NCBI GenBank assembly: GCA_020216655.1
Contig: JAIWNU010000132.1
Span: 1-16,797 of the forward strand
Source of the DNA: Treponema sp.
Lineage (GTDB): Bacteria; Spirochaetota; Spirochaetia; Treponematales; Breznakiellaceae
Direction: 5' to 3'
DNA: 16,797 nt
Position numbers and translations under genes: made by a program. Shown piece by piece: positions 893 to 16,700 of this stretch. Each line of letters opens with the position of its first letter. The first letter of the stretch is position 1. The notes under the pieces were generated by a model, which made no database searches, was not told the origin of the DNA, and saw nothing but the letters and a program-made list of their open reading frames with translations.

Positions 893-2791
893 CTAATAAC
901 GCCGCTTGGGCAGCACTGCCCGGGCCACCTCTGCGGGAAAGACTTCTTCGCTCGTGATGATCCGTGTCGGAAGTTCCTTTCCATCAAAATAATCCTGGAT
1001 AACCTTCATAAGCTGGGGGCCCAAAAGGGGAGTACATTCTACGGTGCAGTTCAGCTTTCCTGCGATCATTGCCTGGAAGGCTTCCTTGACCGCATCTACC
1101 GAGACAATAACGATATCCTTGCCCGGGTTAAGGCCCGCTGCCTCTATGGACTGGATTGCCCCCAGTGCCATGTCGTCATTATGGGCAAAAAGCACATCTA
1201 TCCGGTTTTGTTCTGTTTCAAGAATTCGTTTCATGACATCCCTGCCCTGATCAAAATAGAAATTGGCGATTTCTGATCGGATAATACGGTATTCCTTATG
1301 GGCTGCCAGGGTTGTTTCAAAACCCCGTTTACGATCCAATGCGGGGGCAGAGCCAACGGTCCCCTGAAGTTCCACAATATTGATGATCCCGTCCGGGGTG
1401 GGATGCTGCTGCATATAGGAAAGGAGCCAGCGGGCAGCCCTGCGGCCCTCTTCCAAAAAATCAGAGCCGATAAAGGTTGCCCAAAGACTGTCATCCTTTA
1501 TGTCCACTTCCCGGTCCGAAAGTATGACCGGAATTCCCGCTTCTTTTGCTTCCTGCAAAACCGGTTCCCAGCCGGACTCTACGATTGGAGAGAAGGCAAT
1601 AATATCCACCTTTTGCCGTATAAAACTGCGGATTGCCTCTATCTGTTTTTCCTGTTTTTGCTGTCCGTCAACAAAAATAAGCTCAATTCCCGCATCTCGG
1701 GCTGCATCCTTTATAGATTTTGTATTCGTCAATCTCCAGCGGCTTTCGCTTCCCACCTGCGCAAAGCCGAGCCTGATTGGTTCCTTGTTTGACCGGGGGT
1801 GCCGGAAAGATGCGTAGGGATCCACATTTGTATTGACCGTTTCTGCGGTAATTTTTCTTGTTCGCAGGTATATTTTTTTGGGGATTCCCGGTTTTTTTTC
1901 CAAAATATCCCAGGCATAGTTTACCGCCTCTTTCCCGCCTGTGGGACAGATAAAGGTCGCCGTAAGAAGCCCCTTTCGTACCAGGTCAAGGCCGCCGTTC
2001 GCCCCCTCTAAGCCATCGACACCGATAAATTTGATATTTTTAATCCCCGCCTTTTTCGTTGCAAGGATTGCCCCATAGGCCATGGCATCATTCTGGGATA
2101 CGATAACGTCGGGGATGGGACTTTTAGCGAGCAAAGCCGACAAAGCGTCTTCGGCCTGGTCTCGAAGCCAGTCGGCGGTGACCGTTTTGGTGAGCCTAAT
2201 GCCCGGATGCCGCTCAATTTCCTGCCGCAGCCCTGTACTGCGATCTATGGTGGGGGGCGAACCTGCCCTCCCTTGTATCTCCCACACGGTCCCGCCGCTT
2301 TTTCCCAGAAGTTCAGATACCGAGCGTCCCGTTTCTCGGCCGATCAACTGGTTGTCCGGACCGATATACAGCGTATAGTCGTAGCCTTCTACCGCCCGGT
2401 CCAGCACAATGACCGGAATGGTTTTATATGCTTCGGTTACGACAGGGGTGAGCACCTGCGAATCCGTAGGCGAAATAATAAGCAGGTCTATGCCATAGGC
2501 AAGGAGCCGCCTTACATCATCAACCTGGCGCTCACTTGAATCGACCGCATCGGTAATGACTACCCGCATGTCAGGGTATAGTTTCGCCTGCTGGGTAATT
2601 TCTTCGGTCATGCTGATGCGCCAGGGTTCCGAAAGGTTTGCCTGGGAAAGACCGATGAGTATCCCCACTTCCTGTTCTACCTTCTGGTATGAGGTTAAGG
2701 GCAGTATGTTAACAAACCAGAGCAGAAAGACAGAAACAACCATGATCCCCAGGGCAATAAGAATAAAAGAGGGCTGCAGATACCCTTTCAT
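893..2791 (-). CDS. membrane-anchored tandem periplasmic sugar-binding protein (probable sensor)
   Basis: The 632-residue protein carries two consecutive type I periplasmic binding domains. A hydrophobic helix at residues 8-29 has no lipobox or clear cleavage site, so it probably anchors the protein outside the inner membrane. Domain 1 (about 42-315) is RbsB-like, with SPTD, VLDRAV, TIDRSTGL, SQNDAMAYGA and GVDGLEG motifs. A linker (about 316-337) leads to domain 2 (about 339-632), which is YtfQ-like: QQKQEKQIEAIRSF, SPIVESGWEP, VELQGTVGSAPALDRKRGF and AHNDDMALGAIQ. The YtfQ ligand-loop motif GDFTR is replaced by ANFYF (509-513), so ligand preference has probably shifted. Transport binding proteins are normally soluble single domains. 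The anchor and the overlap with a response-regulator gene point to sensing, as for LuxP with LuxQ or XylFII with LytS. The start ATG overlaps the regulator stop as ATGA, with GGGAGG 9 nt upstream. Sensor function is inferred; a transport role is the alternative. Confidence 0.88.
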   Translation of the reverse strand: MKGYLQPSFILIALGIMVVSVFLLWFVNILPLTSYQKVEQEVGILIGLSQANLSEPWRISMTEEITQQAKLYPDMRVVITDAVDSSERQVDDVRRLLAYGIDLLIISPTDSQVLTPVVTEAYKTIPVIVLDRAVEGYDYTLYIGPDNQLIGRETGRSVSELLGKSGGTVWEIQGRAGSPPTIDRSTGLRQEIERHPGIRLTKTVTADWLRDQAEDALSALLAKSPIPDVIVSQNDAMAYGAILATKKAGIKNIKFIGVDGLEGANGGLDLVRKGLLTATFICPTGGKEAVNYAWDILEKKPGIPKKIYLRTRKITAETVNTNVDPYASFRHPRSNKEPIRLGFAQVGSESRWRLTNTKSIKDAARDAGIELIFVDGQQKQEKQIEAIRSFIRQKVDIIAFSPIVESGWEPVLQEAKEAGIPVILSDREVDIKDDSLWATFIGSDFLEEGRRAARWLLSYMQQHPTPDGIINIVELQGTVGSAPALDRKRGFETTLAAHKEYRIIRSEIANFYFDQGRDVMKRILETEQNRIDVLFAHNDDMALGAIQSIEAAGLNPGKDIVIVSVDAVKEAFQAMIAGKLNCTVECTPLLGPQLMKVIQDYFDGKELPTRIITSEEVFPAEVARAVLPKRRY

Positions 2792-5904: not shown

Positions 5905-7065
5905 TCACTCCTCTTCGAGTTTTGAAATTGGTTTTGTTTTTTCTCCATTTCTTTCACCTGTCGGCAAGAGGAGCCGAACATTTTCCTTTAGGGTATCAAA
6001 CAGGAGCCCTGCGGTTTTTAGGAGCATACTGCGGCTCTCGTTGTCAAGGTTAGAAATGGCTGTTCCCATTGCGCGGACCCGCTGGATCCAGTTGGTAGAG
6101 AGATCCCTAAAATTGCTAATGTCCGCAGCTTCGATAATGTCAAATAACGCATCGACAAAGCGCTGCCGTTCTTCAGGACTTAGCGCACCAAGCCATTCTT
6201 TTATAGTTGTATCAATAAAACGGCTCGTATCGCTTACGGTGTCAACGCAGACAAAATCCGGCCCAAGTACAACCCATGAATAGGGATCATGCTGGGCAAT
6301 GCCCCGCTGGGTGCTTAGTACAATAGTATACTGTTCTGAATGTTCAAGAAGCATCCCAATAATAGATGACTGGGGTACATAGGCAAAGAGCCGGCCCTCC
6401 AGTTCTCGGAACCCTTTTTTTGCGATTATTGATTTGTTAAAACCGGGGCCATCATTGTTATACACCGCGGTGATTCGCCGTTTTGTCCAGAAACCGCTGA
6501 ATGCCGCAGCGTACACCGCAAGATTCCCCCCTTTAGAATGACCTCCGATGCGGAGCCTCCCGTGTACCGATTTAGCTGCTTTTTCCAAATAGAGCAGCGC
6601 AAGCTGCTGGGCTGGAACAGGGGTCATGAAACTCATGTTAAAGTCCTCTTTCCAGCCCGCAACGGTAGCATCGGTCCCGCGGAATGCAATAAAAGAGCTG
6701 CCGTCGGTAAGAGAAAAGGTCACCGCAGCAAATTGGGTTTCCGCTTCCTGGTCAAAATGGTTTTGATAGCCTAAAATCCTCACATCGGAAAAACGTTTTG
6801 TTTTTGCAGCCCTCAGGAAAAAGCTTATATGCCGTTCAATCCGTTCAGACCAGCCCCGTTCTTTTATGTCTTTTAAACTGAGTTGTGCAAATATTTCTGC
6901 CACTTCTGCGATGGTAAGGCCCCGTGTTTTTGTAAATCCTGGCACAAGACCATCAAAGGGGAGGTAGGCAAAGACACTGAATATCAGGTTATCAACCGGA
7001 TTAAAGGGACTCCCCTTAAAAGATAGATCTCCCCGCCAATCAAGATAGGTTTCTAAATTGTTCAT
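5905..7065 (-). CDS. DUF2974 (Mbeg1-like) lipase-fold alpha/beta hydrolase
   Basis: The 386-residue protein has no signal peptide or clear membrane helix, so it is probably cytoplasmic. The lipase-like core has a strand with AFRGTD (127-132), resembling the oxyanion region of class 3 lipases, and the nucleophile elbow GGHSKGG with candidate catalytic S177. A candidate acid is D205 in YNNDGPGF. The N-terminal region (LSFKGSPFNPVDNLIFSVFAYLPF, split here as 14-27 and 28-37) is typical of DUF2974 proteins. The catalytic histidine cannot be assigned by eye. Residues after about 290 form a charged, mostly helical tail ending GEKTKPISKLEEE. The ATG lies 3 nt after the stop of the hydrogenase-like chemoreceptor gene and lacks its own ribosome binding site, so translation is probably coupled. 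Substrate is unknown; esterase or lipase activity is a family-level guess. Confidence 0.8.
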   Translation of the reverse strand: MNNLETYLDWRGDLSFKGSPFNPVDNLIFSVFAYLPFDGLVPGFTKTRGLTIAEVAEIFAQLSLKDIKERGWSERIERHISFFLRAAKTKRFSDVRILGYQNHFDQEAETQFAAVTFSLTDGSSFIAFRGTDATVAGWKEDFNMSFMTPVPAQQLALLYLEKAAKSVHGRLRIGGHSKGGNLAVYAAAFSGFWTKRRITAVYNNDGPGFNKSIIAKKGFRELEGRLFAYVPQSSIIGMLLEHSEQYTIVLSTQRGIAQHDPYSWVVLGPDFVCVDTVSDTSRFIDTTIKEWLGALSPEERQRFVDALFDIIEAADISNFRDLSTNWIQRVRAMGTAISNLDNESRSMLLKTAGLLFDTLKENVRLLLPTGERNGEKTKPISKLEEE

Positions 7066-7068
7066 TAC

Positions 7069-9162
7069 TTAAACCAGCGCAGCGTTCTTATGGGAAATTT
7101 CAGAGATTGAGTTTACTTCCTGGGCAATTGCTTGGAGCGAAACGCCCATCTCCTTTGTCAGGCTTTCCAGTTGCTGTGTTGCCGTTGTTAGCTGCTCCAA
7201 GGCATTTCCAACACCCCCGGTCTCGGAAGACATGGTGCGCATGGACCCAAAAATCTCTTTCATTCCATCTGCTTCCGCAGCAAGTTTTTCCAGTACCGAT
7301 TGAATATGGGTTCCGGATTCGGTGGTTACCGTAGCGGCGCTGTCCATAGCCCTAATCATTTCTGTTATAGTTTTGCTTATCTCGTTCGCATTTACCCTGG
7401 CCATGTCTGCCAGGTGTCGAATTTCCTCAGCTACAACCGCGAATCCCGCCCCTGCAGAACCCGCATGGGCTGCCTCTATTGCCGCATTCATGGACAGGAG
7501 ATTTGTCTGCGCTGCAATTTTATTAATGTCTGTAATAAGCCGATTAACCCCGTGTATGTGATCCCGGAGTGATTGGATAGATTTCAGCGAGGCCCCCAGT
7601 TCTTTCTGTACTGCCAGAGCCATATCAAGCAAGGCTCCCAACTCAGTGCTGCGGCTGGAAGAAAGGCTGCCAATCTCCTGAATACTGGAAAGCAGACCCC
7701 TGATCTTTTGAGTGGAATTGGCCAGTGAATCCGATTGAGCCTGGGTAAACTTTGAAAGTTCTGGCAGCATGTTTATTACCTGATTCAAGTTTTGCGTACT
7801 TGCCGCTATTTCTTTGTCCAGCTCTATGACCATATTGATGATATTGCGATGGTTCCGTTCCAGCACCAATTGGCGGTAATGCTGGCAGTTTTCCGGTTTA
7901 TTAAGCCCGTTATATACTGCAATCGCCATTTGCTCACAGCTTCCGTACCCGCAGGCTGCACAGTTCAGGAAATCTTTTTCTTCTATTTTTAACATCCTGT
8001 GGTAAATTTCCTGCAGTTCATCCTGTCTTGGAACCTGTAATCTCAGAGAATCAGACCGGTTTACATAGCTGCGCTTAAAAAGCTCCGATTTCCAATATTT
8101 GTTAATCAATCTTCGTATACTCTGGACAGAGCTTTTTTTAAAGGGGCCGCTGTTGTTGCTTAATTTTGCTGTTTCTCTCTGCAGCCTGCGTTGGACCGCC
8201 GCATCCAATATATCTATGGGAATATCCTGAGAACCGGTCCCGGTGCCGCCGTTGCAGCCCTTTTCGCAATTTAAGCAATCTAAAATCAGGGGATTTGCTT
8301 TTTTCGTAATCGATTGCGCAATGCCTTTCAGATAGTCATATACCGTCTCAGGGCCTTCAATTTTTCGAATTGTATTGTACAAATCGGGCCTTTCCCGTTC
8401 TACTGTCGCTTTAAGGCCCCCAGGAGAAGAAAACAACACGGCCCGTTCGCCGGTGGGGCCATCAAAATCAGTTTCCGGGAATGATGTTAAATTGATCTGC
8501 TGGTCTTCCAGGTAAGCGCTGATCCGCTCCAATGTTACGTTGTAATCTCCGATGCCGGTCTCATCGAATTCCCGGCGCTTTGCAACGCAGGGAGAAACAA
8601 CAAGGATCTTATGATGCTTGAGCTCAGGAAACTGGTGCCGTATCATTTTAATGGTATGGAGCATGGGGCTGTCTGCTGGCGCTAGGTAAGGCAGGAGTTC
8701 AGGCTGATAAATCTCTATGTAGGAGACGATTGCAGGACATGGCTGCGCTATAACCAACGGAGGATTCTGCTGTTTAATATGGTGCAAATAGGATTGGACC
8801 GTCAGTTCGGCCCCAAAGGCAACGTCGAAAATGTGGGTAACACCGATACTTTTTAGACATCCGTTAAAGCGGAGCCGGTCTGCATCGTAATGGGCTGCTA
8901 CGGCAGGAGCAACAATGGCAAATAATTTTTCCTTTTTGGTAATGGCCTCCATAAAGCGATCAAAATCATCAATACCCCTGCGAGCCCCATGGGTACAGGC
9001 TGCTATACAGGATCCGCATCCAATACAAAGAGTATGATAGACCGTCACCTTGTCGCCAGAACCATCAATACAGAATTTTACAGGGCACACAGAAATACAG
9101 GTGTGGCAATTGGTACATTTTTTTTCTATCACTTCTATAACTGGTGCGAGCGAATTCCCCAT
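7069..9162 (-). CDS. soluble [FeFe]-hydrogenase-like chemoreceptor (putative H2/redox sensor)
   Basis: The 697-residue fusion has four parts. Residues 10-60 hold two [4Fe-4S] ferredoxin motifs (C16/19/22/26 and C46/49/52/56). Residues about 80-330 are an [FeFe] hydrogenase H-cluster domain with C142 (AQPCPAI, loop L1), C192 and K195 (SPCVAK, L2), and C299/C303 (NCEKGCNGG, L3). All four expected cluster cysteines are present. Residues about 395-430 hold a further Fe-S motif (CAACGYGSC...C, C401/404/409/426). Residues about 440-697 form a methyl-accepting chemoreceptor signalling coiled coil with its tip region around NAAIEAAHAGSAGAGFAVVAEE. There is no membrane helix, so it acts in the cytoplasm. 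The layout resembles sensory group C (HydS-type) hydrogenases, with a chemotaxis output in place of PAS/kinase. The L1 cysteine used in proton transfer is replaced by proline, which fits sensing rather than turnover. I chose M at 9162 because GGAGG lies 5 nt upstream. A longer in-frame start at 9213 falls inside the promoter. Confidence 0.92.
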   Translation of the reverse strand: MGNSLAPVIEVIEKKCTNCHTCISVCPVKFCIDGSGDKVTVYHTLCIGCGSCIAACTHGARRGIDDFDRFMEAITKKEKLFAIVAPAVAAHYDADRLRFNGCLKSIGVTHIFDVAFGAELTVQSYLHHIKQQNPPLVIAQPCPAIVSYIEIYQPELLPYLAPADSPMLHTIKMIRHQFPELKHHKILVVSPCVAKRREFDETGIGDYNVTLERISAYLEDQQINLTSFPETDFDGPTGERAVLFSSPGGLKATVERERPDLYNTIRKIEGPETVYDYLKGIAQSITKKANPLILDCLNCEKGCNGGTGTGSQDIPIDILDAAVQRRLQRETAKLSNNSGPFKKSSVQSIRRLINKYWKSELFKRSYVNRSDSLRLQVPRQDELQEIYHRMLKIEEKDFLNCAACGYGSCEQMAIAVYNGLNKPENCQHYRQLVLERNHRNIINMVIELDKEIAASTQNLNQVINMLPELSKFTQAQSDSLANSTQKIRGLLSSIQEIGSLSSSRSTELGALLDMALAVQKELGASLKSIQSLRDHIHGVNRLITDINKIAAQTNLLSMNAAIEAAHAGSAGAGFAVVAEEIRHLADMARVNANEISKTITEMIRAMDSAATVTTESGTHIQSVLEKLAAEADGMKEIFGSMRTMSSETGGVGNALEQLTTATQQLESLTKEMGVSLQAIAQEVNSISEISHKNAALV
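8303..8320. promoter_or_regulatory. intragenic 16/18 match to the GH30 operator palindrome
   Basis: TTCGTAATCGATTGCGCA inside the hydrogenase-chemoreceptor gene differs at two positions from the perfect palindrome at 11686-11703. It encodes part of AQSITKKA, so it may be coincidental, but a match this close is not expected by chance in a window of this size. It could be an auxiliary operator of the same LacI-type regulator. Confidence 0.25.
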
Positions 9163-9184
9163 ACATTCCTCCGAGATAAGTATT

Positions 9185-13292: not shown

Positions 13293-16200
13293 TTAGGAGA
13301 GCAGAACAGAGGCAGGAATTATAGCTTCTATTTTAACTATGCTGCCATCCCGGTTAAAGAGCCTGCGGCTATGATCGGTATCAAGGGCGAGACTTGAGAT
13401 TTTGAACACCTCTGTTTTACCAGACCCTGGAATGTTCTGGTGAACAAGAATGCCCGCTTCGCCATTTGCTCCAAGACGGTATTCAAAGGGAACCCCGCAA
13501 TAGGTAAATGCGAGGCGGCCGTCAGCCAAAAACTCCGATTTTTTAAGCAAAATCGGATCCAGGACGAGCTGTCCGTTCCGGATGCTCAAGCCCAATTCTC
13601 CCCAGCGGGTAATGACCTCTTCCTTTACTTGCCCGGTCATGCCCGGCTGTTTTGCACCCTGGCCTGCGGGCGTGTGGGAATAGGGGTCGGTCGGGAAGGC
13701 CCCATAGACTTCGGGCTTTTTGTTAAACCCAAGCCCCTTGCGTACATCGTAGTATGCTTCGATAAGGCCCTGGCGGATTTCTTTGTCCTGTTCCAGTAGC
13801 AGTGTTTCCTGAAGGGCCAATAGCAGCTTGGACACCATGTGCCAGTAAATGCTGCCCAGTCCTTCATAGGCATAAAAGGTTCCCGACCGGCCGGTAAAGC
13901 TGCGGTGATGGAATGTTTTTTCGTACAGGTCCAATATGGCCTGTTTATCGTTCTGGACAAGAACGGCCAGAGCCGGATCTTCTGCTTCGATATGATGGAG
14001 CATCTTTTCCAGATCCTTGGCATTGCGGAACTGGGCGTTAAAGTGACCCATACCATGGATATCCAGCTTAATAATCCGGTGGTCATCCTGTTCAAGAAGC
14101 TTTTTCAAAAGCTTAATAGATTCAACTTCCGACTTCGGAACGCGGTTTTTTTCCAGGAAATGGGGTAATTCCTTATCTGGATACAGAATATAGGAATACT
14201 GGTCTTCCCGGAAAAGCCTGCCGTGACGGAGGGCTTTAAAGACCGCAAGGCTTTCAGAACCGGTGAGCGCCCGGGACGAAAGGACTGCCACCTGGCCTTC
14301 GAGCATTTCATCAAGATAGTGGAGGGTAATGCTGCCGTCCTGTTCTACACTAAAGGTGTTGTACGCATGGTAAAGGCCGTCGCTCCGGCGGTTTTTCTGG
14401 ATAGTGTACAGGATATGGGATTTAAAGCGTTTAAGCTGTTCCAGCAGTTCGTGCCGTGAAAGCGCGGCTGTTTTGCCGCTGTAACCATTCATGTACAGGC
14501 TTTCCCGGAATGTTTCGTAGATCTTTCCGGCTTTATCCATAAAGTTCCGGCGGCCCTGGGGTGTGTCTGCTGCCGCAGGGTCGGTGTCCGCAAAAATACG
14601 GCCCAGGTCCTGCAGGCAGGCGTAGGTTTCTTCAGGCAGAGCAAAGGCCGATGCATCGGATTCGCTGTACAGTTGAATGGCGAAATCTACATAGCGGTGC
14701 AGGTAATACAGGGTTACCATAGAAAGGCCGTAGCCAGCCAGGGCGTTGTTGGCATCATTCCATTCGGGCCGTTGGGTGTTGAGCCAGATGCCGCCGCCGG
14801 GAACCAGGTTTGCAAGCTTTGCAAGAAGGATTGCCAAGAATTTTGCCGTAAAAGACACGAGGGCTACCGACTTGTCGCTGTTCAGAACGAGCTTTGCATC
14901 GGTTCCCAGCTCTGCCACAAGCTTTTCTATGGCGTGATGCCGCTGGTGATCAAAGTCTATGGTTGACCGGGGATTGGCAAGAATATCCTTATAGGGCTTT
15001 AAGTGGTAAGGAACGTTGGCGCTGGAATACCGGGGCTGGTCCAGGGCAGCCAAAAGGCCCTTTTTGTCCAGGTTATACTGGAATTCCAGCAGTTTTAAGA
15101 GGTAAATCACCTGGTGATCCCCCCAATAGCCAATGTTTGACCAGGGGTTATCAGGCTCCACCACTTCCCAGTCTATGCCGTCCCGGGTAATCCGGTAGGG
15201 GTTAAAACCTTCCGGGGTAAGGGCATTAAGGAATTTGGACACCATGCCTTCGATATAACCAGGATAGGAATAGGCGAGGGCTTCCCAGTTCTGGAATATA
15301 TCCCGCCAGTTTCCCTGGTAGTTAAGCTTGCGCCGGCCCTTGTCGTCCTTAAGCTCAATGGAGAACCGGTTCCAGGGCCGGCTCGGGTCACCATGGCGCC
15401 GCGAGAAGGTAAGGGGCAGGTATTCCAGCGCAATCCGTTCGAGCTGGGCATTGTTCTGGGACCGGACCTGATGAAGAAGGGTAAAATAATTGATGATTTT
15501 TCCGAGCCCGGCTACGGTTTGCGCCATGATCGGGGCCAGTGCCTTGTTTCGTACCTTTACAAAGGCCACTAGGTCTTCGGCGGATATATCGTAGGCGTCG
15601 GCAAAAAAGCCGCCCCGCATTATATTAAAGAGCACGTTAGCCTTGTGGTGAATACAGGTTATCTCTTCTGCGCTGTGCTGGATACCGTCGGCTGCTGCAA
15701 GGTAGCTTTCCAGCTGGGCCTGGGTTTTTTTAACATCCTCTCGCAGCAGGGCCTCGGCCTTTTTCTTGTCCCGGATTGTTTCTCGCAGGGCAATAGCTGC
15801 GCTGGCATCCAGGTTCGTGTCAAAGACCTGGTACCATTCATCCTGGGCTCCTGCGGCGAGCTTAATGGTTTGGTACAATAAATGACTTGGCCGCTGTCCC
15901 TTAAGTACCGGTGTTTCCGGCAGGGGGAGCCCGTACTTAAAGGCCTCATTGGTCTCGTGGGCCAGGTAAATCCTGCCGTTCCGGCTGAACCAGCCCGCAT
16001 TGGCAAAAAGACCCTCGCTTGGTTCTGCCTTGTCGGTGACTATGGAACTAACCGCAAAGAGGGCCATACCGGTTTCTTGGTCTAAATCGGTTTTTTTATA
16101 GGCATCCAGAAGTACGCTGTTGGCATTTTGGAAATCGGCACTCGTACAGGCGGGCATAATATTCTGGCAGCCGTCAAGTATTTCTATAGTACGTTCTGCC

Positions 16201-16700
16201 TTTCCAAGGTTCAGTATCCTGCTGTGCCGGACAAGACCAAAGCGGTCACTGCTGGTCCATCCATACTGGAAGGCAAGAGCCAGGTCATGATTTATTTCTT
16301 CAAAATAGACGCTGGAGCCGCTTGTGTTTTTATACAGGTTCCGCTCTATGTTCCAGATTCCCGCGCTGCAGGATGAAAAGGGTTCCCAATACCAAGCATC
16401 CTTTCCGTCCGCCACTTTTATGGCCGTAAAGGACCCGGTATAGGGTTTCCCGTCCGCCACCTTGTCCGCAGTATAATAGGGGAAAATCGCATAGTCGGCA
16501 TTTTTCCGGCCTGCGGTAATTCCGCCATTGGACCAAATAAAGTTCCACACATCGGAGGCACTAACGATGGTCATGAAAAGGGGCGGCATCGCATCAATAT
16601 GGGAAATCTTAAAATAGGTATCATCCAAAAAGGAAACCAGGCCGCTCTGTACCTGTTCGTTCCCCGTGGTCTGTAATGAAGAAAGCCGTAATCCGTTCAT
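13293..16700 (-). CDS. large GH94-related phosphorylase (probable beta-1,3-glucan phosphorylase, GH149/GH161-like)
   Basis: The 1135-residue cytoplasmic protein looks like a large inverting glycoside phosphorylase related to cellobiose phosphorylase. The N-terminal beta-sandwich half (about 1-300) includes SNGGITAGRKNADYAIFPYY (58-77), DAWYWEPFS (101-109) and RHSRILNLGKAERTIEI. A helical linker (about 305-345) leads to an (alpha/alpha)6-barrel region (about 350-1000). This has RRHGDPSRPWNRF (434-446), NYQGNWRDIFQNWEAL (460-475) and IGYWGDHQVIYLLKLLE (523-539), where D528 is a candidate catalytic acid. A second GRSGTFYAYEGLGSIYWHM block follows. Cellobiose phosphorylases (GH94) are about 800 residues; GH149 and GH161 beta-1,3-glucan phosphorylases are near 1100, which fits better. 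There is no signal peptide. The ATG has AGGAG 6 nt upstream. It converges with the GH30 gene, consistent with a shared beta-glucan pathway. The family is fairly secure; substrate and exact GH family are inferred. Confidence 0.8.
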   Translation of the reverse strand: MNGLRLSSLQTTGNEQVQSGLVSFLDDTYFKISHIDAMPPLFMTIVSASDVWNFIWSNGGITAGRKNADYAIFPYYTADKVADGKPYTGSFTAIKVADGKDAWYWEPFSSCSAGIWNIERNLYKNTSGSSVYFEEINHDLALAFQYGWTSSDRFGLVRHSRILNLGKAERTIEILDGCQNIMPACTSADFQNANSVLLDAYKKTDLDQETGMALFAVSSIVTDKAEPSEGLFANAGWFSRNGRIYLAHETNEAFKYGLPLPETPVLKGQRPSHLLYQTIKLAAGAQDEWYQVFDTNLDASAAIALRETIRDKKKAEALLREDVKKTQAQLESYLAAADGIQHSAEEITCIHHKANVLFNIMRGGFFADAYDISAEDLVAFVKVRNKALAPIMAQTVAGLGKIINYFTLLHQVRSQNNAQLERIALEYLPLTFSRRHGDPSRPWNRFSIELKDDKGRRKLNYQGNWRDIFQNWEALAYSYPGYIEGMVSKFLNALTPEGFNPYRITRDGIDWEVVEPDNPWSNIGYWGDHQVIYLLKLLEFQYNLDKKGLLAALDQPRYSSANVPYHLKPYKDILANPRSTIDFDHQRHHAIEKLVAELGTDAKLVLNSDKSVALVSFTAKFLAILLAKLANLVPGGGIWLNTQRPEWNDANNALAGYGLSMVTLYYLHRYVDFAIQLYSESDASAFALPEETYACLQDLGRIFADTDPAAADTPQGRRNFMDKAGKIYETFRESLYMNGYSGKTAALSRHELLEQLKRFKSHILYTIQKNRRSDGLYHAYNTFSVEQDGSITLHYLDEMLEGQVAVLSSRALTGSESLAVFKALRHGRLFREDQYSYILYPDKELPHFLEKNRVPKSEVESIKLLKKLLEQDDHRIIKLDIHGMGHFNAQFRNAKDLEKMLHHIEAEDPALAVLVQNDKQAILDLYEKTFHHRSFTGRSGTFYAYEGLGSIYWHMVSKLLLALQETLLLEQDKEIRQGLIEAYYDVRKGLGFNKKPEVYGAFPTDPYSHTPAGQGAKQPGMTGQVKEEVITRWGELGLSIRNGQLVLDPILLKKSEFLADGRLAFTYCGVPFEYRLGANGEAGILVHQNIPGSGKTEVFKISSLALDTDHSRRLFNRDGSIVKIEAIIPASVLLS

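Follow-up and report, generated by a model that had tools for sequence, protein, structure and literature searches.

The gene described here lies on the reverse strand of a 16,797-nucleotide stretch of Treponema sp. DNA (GenBank assembly GCA_020216655.1, contig JAIWNU010000132.1; hereafter the window) and encodes a soluble chemoreceptor built around an [FeFe]-hydrogenase domain. With moderate confidence, we read this protein as an H2-responsive, cytoplasmic and dimeric group C2 chemoreceptor that would feed CheA. The protein belongs to HydDB group C2, as assigned by the HydDB description and an H-domain tree, independently of HydDB's own classifier. Since it fits the HydDB definition of C2 and falls on a single, fully supported C2 branch, it adds a member to a class that already has a name but has seen little experimental work.

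Domain Architecture of the Receptor

The gene and its features are listed below (minus strand throughout; residues are those of the protein).

7069..9162 (-): soluble [FeFe]-hydrogenase-domain chemoreceptor gene, 697 aa (open reading frame (ORF), Pfam, homologues)
9168..9172 (-): ribosome-binding site GGAGG ahead of the ATG (read in the sequence)
8980..9123 (-): two ferredoxin [4Fe-4S] motifs, residues 14-61 (C16, C19, C22, C26; C46, C49, C52, C56; Pfam, conserved in homologues)
8245..8928 (-): hydrogenase (H-)domain, Fe_hyd_lg_C, residues 79-306 (Pfam)
8734..8748 (-): L1 motif AQPCP, residues 139-143, with ligand C142; proline replaces the proton-relay cysteine (alignments)
8578..8595 (-): L2 motif SPCVAK, residues 190-195, with ligand C192 and K195 (alignments)
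8245..8280 (-): L3 motif DCLNCEKGCNGG, residues 295-306, with ligands C299 and C303 and the extra invariant C296 (alignments)
7990..8217 (-): helical linker from H-domain to iron-sulphur (FeS) domain, residues 316-391 (AlphaFold2 model)
7882..7968 (-): extra FeS domain PF04060, Cx2Cx4Cx16C (C401, C404, C409, C426; Pfam, homologue alignment)
7465..7884 (-): arm 1 of the coiled coil of a methyl-accepting chemotaxis protein (MCP), a single helix, residues 427-566, directly after C426 (AlphaFold2 model, MCPsignal)
7393..7506 (-): MCP hairpin tip, residues 553-590, expected CheA/CheW contact (invariant residues among homologues)
7075..7461 (-): arm 2 of the MCP coiled coil, helix 568-696 (AlphaFold2 model)

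The ORF starts with the ATG at 9162 and ends with the stop at 7069-7071. The first-pass annotation had described a fusion of ferredoxin clusters, an H-domain with its four expected cysteines, an extra FeS domain and a chemoreceptor coiled coil with no membrane segment, and this description held in every part. Pfam places the Fer4 motifs at residues 15-61, the FeS domain at 399-427 and MCPsignal (PF00015) at 516-671 (E 7e-28), while the PF02906 match (E 7e-32) exceeds the cut-off and spans profile positions 2-244 of 245, that is, the full domain. The AlphaFold2 model (mean predicted local distance difference test score 86.6) agrees with this layout, and its first rod helix begins at residue 427, past the last FeS cysteine. 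The model matches a known fold, with a list of structural matches that covers residues 1-371 and says little about the FeS and MCP parts. The strongest 19-residue hydropathy mean is only 1.40, which predicts no membrane span, and the Pfam scan of the receptor gave no PAS or HAMP domain between sensor and rod. The fusion is not a chance one, since PF02906 and PF00015 are both present in all of the best 120 homologues. In the homologue scoring, 4228 of 7999 candidates passed E 0.001, many of them possibly through the MCP part alone.

The H-Cluster Pocket and a Fifth Cysteine

Alignment to group A enzymes from the sampled genomes gave C142, C192, C299 and C303 as the H-cluster ligands, and these four cysteines are without variation in 121/121 sequences (the window protein and 120 homologues). 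Among solved hydrogenases, T. maritima HydA (7p5h) confirms C142 and C192; L1 and L2 are well covered there, and L3, with C299 and C303, is reached only through an insignificant second stretch. K195 is the equivalent of CpI K358, which contacts a cyanide ligand.

The residues around the ligands depart from the catalytic signature of group A. The equivalents of CpI C299 (the proton relay in L1), M353 and M497 are Pro141, Ser190 and Leu297, respectively, and the relay position is proline in all 121 C2 rows and in all 80 named loci, which also all carry the FeS motif. Proline at this position is common to C2 and C1, and C3 has Ala there. In published HydDB-based figures, sensory enzymes have Cys at the relay position in only 17% of cases and Pro in about 10% (PMC10055695).

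A fifth conserved cysteine, C296, takes a position that is Val or Ile in groups A and B. This cysteine was found in 121/121 C2 rows, 3/3 rows of a C2 offshoot and 135/135 of the wider genome-derived receptor set, but in 0/7 group B and 0/6 group A rows and in 0/120 each of C1 and C3, the last two being the best 120 matches each, labelled by output domains, which sample near relatives of two queries. Its count in the named loci (80/80) is uninformative, because the scan pattern and the choice of ORF both demanded that motif, so the evidence for C296 comes from the homologue, wider-set and group alignments. Further marker residues of C2 are Q140, H169, S190 and N298.

Class Membership and Distribution

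In HydDB, [FeFe] group C2 is labelled 'Chemotactic (putative)' and 'may sense H2 and regulate processes via methyl-accepting chemotaxis proteins' (PMC5037454, in part). The naming of C2 as a putative hydrogen chemoreceptor dates from 2016, and the chemotactic output that the first-pass annotation had presented as a departure from known sensory hydrogenases is not new. The window protein has H-domain and MCP fused within one ORF. As to the classification that had been suggested as a check, in a 77-row H-domain tree C2 and a kinase-bearing offshoot share one branch with a support of 100 in the SH-like approximate likelihood ratio test (C1 99, C3 100), the C1 (kinase) and C3 (phosphatase-linked) labels being assigned from fused or neighbouring output domains.

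By sequence, the window receptor sits in a mainly spirochaetal C2 clade. Spirochaetota account for 77 of the 80 loci kept, one genome per species, out of 511, and the best named match is in a Gracilinema caldarium metagenome-assembled genome (MAG; 96% identical). The domain order recurs widely, with the receptor in 124/241 genomes of the order-level sample; the receptor set used below comprises 138 sequences, pieces included, from 120 genomes. A rumen survey gives the abundance of C2, as sensory, in the passages available (PMC10811737). Two C2-clade proteins of about 890 aa (L104 and L105, in G276 and G279) have the relay cysteine restored and the L2 lysine lost; the L105 protein carries a HATPase domain and lacks an MCP match, and a CheX gene follows a few bases on.

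Signalling Output

A behavioural output is well supported at the level of sequence, because the receptor has a complete MCP signalling hairpin and the host genome encodes CheA-type kinases, CheW, CheR, CheB, CheX and response regulators. Thus the cytoplasmic chemotaxis proteins, on whose presence the first-pass annotation had made its reading depend, are there. The host assembly (89.6% complete, 251 contigs) has seven CheW-domain matches, with genes for CheW domains spread over four contigs. On three of these contigs there is also a long CheA-like ORF; the kinase domain was checked for two, the HATPase and CheW ORFs on contigs C75 and C248. Near the host CheW genes are CheA-type kinases, a CheW-CheR fusion, CheX, CheB and receivers or response regulators.

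The tip residues of the hairpin are invariant in 54 sequences; as in known MCPs, the tip is where contact with CheA and CheW is expected. The tip pattern was found in 65 of the 80 named loci, and the 15 without it mostly carry variant tips; among the misses, the frame of L205 is only 498 aa long and the tip of L217 lies beyond the stretch covered. The spacing between the final FeS cysteine and the tip could be measured in 104 of the 120 close homologues with the pattern used, and it is 135 residues in 97 of them; in the 138-sequence set it is 133-138 residues in 98 of 99 measurable members. For methylation sites, the full consensus used gave no match, and three relaxed matches lie at 492, 660 and 678.

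Several steps could connect the pocket to this output. H2 itself, or a redox state imposed by the H2/H+ couple, would act at the H-cluster on C142, C192, C299 and C303, with electrons entering or leaving via the two N-terminal [4Fe-4S] clusters. The linker would then carry the change of state to the C-terminal FeS domain, where C426 caps the MCP helix, and CheA activity at the hairpin tip would change, hence swimming. We infer that the H-cluster is built, that H2 is what the receptor responds to, which way the signal runs, that the protein dimerises and that it couples to CheA. The C-terminal FeS domain is probably a structural coupler rather than an electron acceptor, by analogy with TamHydS, and the near-fixed length of the rod from FeS domain to tip supports this. 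In TamHydS, according to passages of the published work, H2 reduces an N-terminal cluster and shifts secondary structure and leaves the C-terminal cluster unreduced (PMC13104023).

Maturases and the Nature of the Stimulus

H2 is a plausible stimulus, as judged from genes and residues, because the H-cluster ligands are intact, the host has HydG and a HydE fragment, and maturase genes stand beside the receptor in two relatives. The host HydG scores 480 bits, and the HydE fragment runs off the end of the HydG-bearing contig. HydF was not found in the host's 89.6% complete assembly; it is present in a sister genome (G350), whose receptor N-terminus is 94% identical, and in another genome of the same genus (G222). 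The maturases that the first-pass annotation had wanted to see in the host are thus there in part, with HydF missing from the assembly. As an observation apart, the host genome further encodes a group B-like hydrogenase not far from a sensory one of C3 type (L003, L004; G000:C137), an arrangement that recurs in G222.

The two relatives were found in a linkage survey confined to the flanks of the fetched receptors. In G365 a convergent hydE comes after the receptor, then hydG and hydF, with NCBIfam matches well above cut-offs; in G326 a divergent hydG adjoins the receptor, and a HydF domain lies about 1 kb or less beyond. The client of these maturases is likely C2 or group B, because the best H-domain matches in both genomes (E 1.3e-57 and 2.1e-56) score far below group A and are like group B elsewhere.

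Several results weigh against an H2-responsive receptor. HydG was found in 64 of the 120 receptor-bearing genomes and not in 56, and among the 59 near-complete genomes (at least 95%) with a fetched receptor it was found in 31 and not in 28. The HydF tetramer domain is also missing in 27 of these 28 (G249 has HydF), and it was detected in 11 of 12 HydG-positive controls; the twelfth is the host, whose assembly is incomplete. Nine of the 28 were covered by the search with complete HydE and HydF models, the HydE search reaching these nine only, and none had a match above cut-off; below the cut-offs lie a HydE-like match in G044 (165 bits) and a HydG-like one in G216 (180 bits). The pocket is unchanged in these genomes, with the ligand cysteines kept in every HydG-less row that covers them. 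Co-occurrence of C2 with HydG is weak across the order sample (56, 68, 28, 89; odds ratio 2.6, p 7e-4), and when the full sample is split by family, none of the four families tested shows a significant association; with genomes restricted to those at least 95% complete, family f1 (14 genomes) gave p 0.04. Finally, no experiment on any C2 protein was found in searches of open-access PubMed Central, outside whose scope lies an older paper on treponeme hydrogenases and hydrogen sensors that might include fusions of this kind (Ballor, Paulsen and Leadbetter 2012).

A rival explanation is a redox receptor without the [2Fe] subcluster, in which the H-domain would hold only [4Fe-4S] cubanes, with C296 perhaps a further ligand, and would signal the state of ferredoxin or the redox state of the cell to CheA with no need of H2. 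The cysteines kept in the 28 HydG-less genomes, 27 of them also without HydF, speak for this explanation, as do the lost relay cysteine and the invariant fifth cysteine. So does the receptor tree (FastTree, 103 rows), on which well-supported branches force at least 16 changes of the HydG label. However, K195 is retained in 63/63 sequences from HydG-less genomes, hydEGF or hydG adjoins the receptor in two Treponematales genomes, and the window's own genome has HydG. We regard such a receptor as possible but rather improbable for the window protein.

A control from other hydrogenases also speaks against it. Of the 57 genomes of the order that are at least 95% complete and carry an H-domain in the group A range, defined in this analysis as a best H-domain E of at most 1e-80, HydG was above cut-off in 28 and not in 29, so that C2 is not singled out. 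HydG absence as proof of an H2-independent receptor was rejected on this ground. Because canonical group A hydrogenases lack HydG about as often, the maturase-poor pattern is an unexplained feature of the lineage rather than proof of H2-independence. Near-complete HydG-less Treponematales with group A-range enzymes include G186, G089, G162, G252, G261, G275, G250 and G111, among others (L159-L161, L184-L195), and HydF was likewise not found where it was looked for in such genomes. The group A motifs were canonical in those read; the L1 patterns missed G270, one of the two enzymes of G089 and the host's L002. Hydrogenases without maturases are also known from Rhodospirillum rubrum and Entamoeba; in the passages available, the R. 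rubrum enzymes are regarded as either inactive or serving another role (PMC4967309).

Residue 305 was considered as a marker of a lost [2Fe] site and rejected, since on the tree it does not track HydG. It is R, E or A in some HydG-less genomes, and Gly in 30/62 HydG-less rows vs 63/73 of the others. Across 16 independent pairs on supported branches, 0.5 on average changed in the same direction and 15.5 showed no difference; the change to a larger residue takes only three tree steps and is mostly a trait of a Treponemataceae-side clade. Some receptor genes are interrupted by stops or split into two frames (G120, L026; G347, L140; G229, L055). HydG and HydF were not found in G120 or G347, the latter with an intact receptor copy as well, and G229 has HydG; G120 is one of the 28 HydG-less genomes, as is G110, which has pieces only.

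The hydrogen- or redox-taxis receptor of the first-pass annotation thus keeps its behavioural output and a plausible H2 stimulus, and the many genomes that keep the receptor without HydG and HydF count against the latter. We keep the H2 reading for the window protein because its genome has HydG, without extending it to the family in general. Tentatively, in much of the family the H-domain may have turned into a five-cysteine (C142, C192, C296, C299, C303) FeS redox receptor that signals to CheA without [2Fe], which would explain the unchanged receptor in Treponematales genomes without HydG and HydF. A bolder alternative is that these spirochaetes may have a way of building H-clusters that does not involve HydEFG, considered because canonical group A enzymes also persist in HydG-less genomes. 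If the maturase pattern is real, either the H-domain has been decoupled from H2 in a whole receptor family, or H-clusters are assembled without HydEFG. If the H2 reading is true, one protein would lead from H-cluster to swimming, and this route would be common in spirochaetes, including many Treponema-labelled MAGs; taxis towards H2 has been reported for a methanogen, in passages of PMC4266047.

The remaining explanations concern the output. That the receptor works through an alternative Che pathway on a process unrelated to swimming is unlikely: the spread of host CheW-domain genes and CheA-like ORFs over several contigs leaves room for such a pathway, but the surroundings of the gene give no hint of another output, and the largest cluster of neighbouring ORFs is MCP-like by its sequence. 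It is very unlikely that the protein is a slow hydrogenase attached to the chemosensory array and important for its catalysis instead of its signalling, for although studied group C and D proteins keep some H2 turnover in the passages available, the relay cysteine is proline in every C2 row, the whole MCP hairpin with its conserved tip is retained and the rod length is almost constant.

Gene Neighbourhood and Other Genes of the Window

A conserved gene neighbourhood was sought and rejected. The neighbours of the 138 receptors (560 ORFs, 415 clusters; four sequences without context and flanks short) include no general partner gene, and the largest cluster (19 ORFs, 17 genomes) is the MCP-like one. 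The Mbeg1-like hydrolase gene at 5905-7065 (-), which begins a few bases past the receptor stop, is a neighbour in one other genome only.

Elsewhere in the window, the 1135-aa product of 13293-16700 (-) has no significant Pfam match and is a relative of a bacterial beta-1,3-oligosaccharide phosphorylase (6hq6, 1024.7 bits). The 632-aa product of 893-2791 (-) has two periplasmic sugar-binding domain matches, and its gene adjoins a dCache histidine kinase and an AraC-type response regulator. In another genome, a sensory H-domain and FeS domain are fused to GGDEF and EAL (L029, G228:C1:270683-271954), with the L2 lysine changed (SACVAS); this cyclic-di-GMP-type output is outside the C1-C3 descriptions in the HydDB passages available.

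Comparison With Known Systems

As far as passages of the cited work go, four points have not been described: the signature of five cysteines, the rod capped by the FeS domain, the linkage to maturase genes in two genomes and the unexplained maturase-poor distribution. Like HydDB group C2, the window protein is of the [FeFe] sensory type with an MCP as output; neither the C296 signature nor the scarcity of maturases is part of the HydDB description in the passages available. With TmHydS of Thermotoga maritima (group C, M2f) it shares the N-terminal clusters, the H-cluster cysteines and the C-terminal FeS domain. The relay cysteine is likewise lost in TmHydS, as Ala where the window protein has Pro, whereas Gly/Ser stand at M353/M497 instead of Ser/Leu, and a PAS domain takes the place of the MCP. 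TamHydS of Thermoanaerobacter mathranii (group D, M2e) has in common the Cx2Cx4Cx16C motif, Ser at M353 and Leu at M497. The group D type is without a fused output domain, and the window protein, which bears an MCP rod, differs in this respect. The soluble T. maritima MCP 2ch7, whose solved chain, unlike the window protein, is without a hydrogenase domain, aligns with the MCP hairpin over residues 438-690 (E 2e-17).
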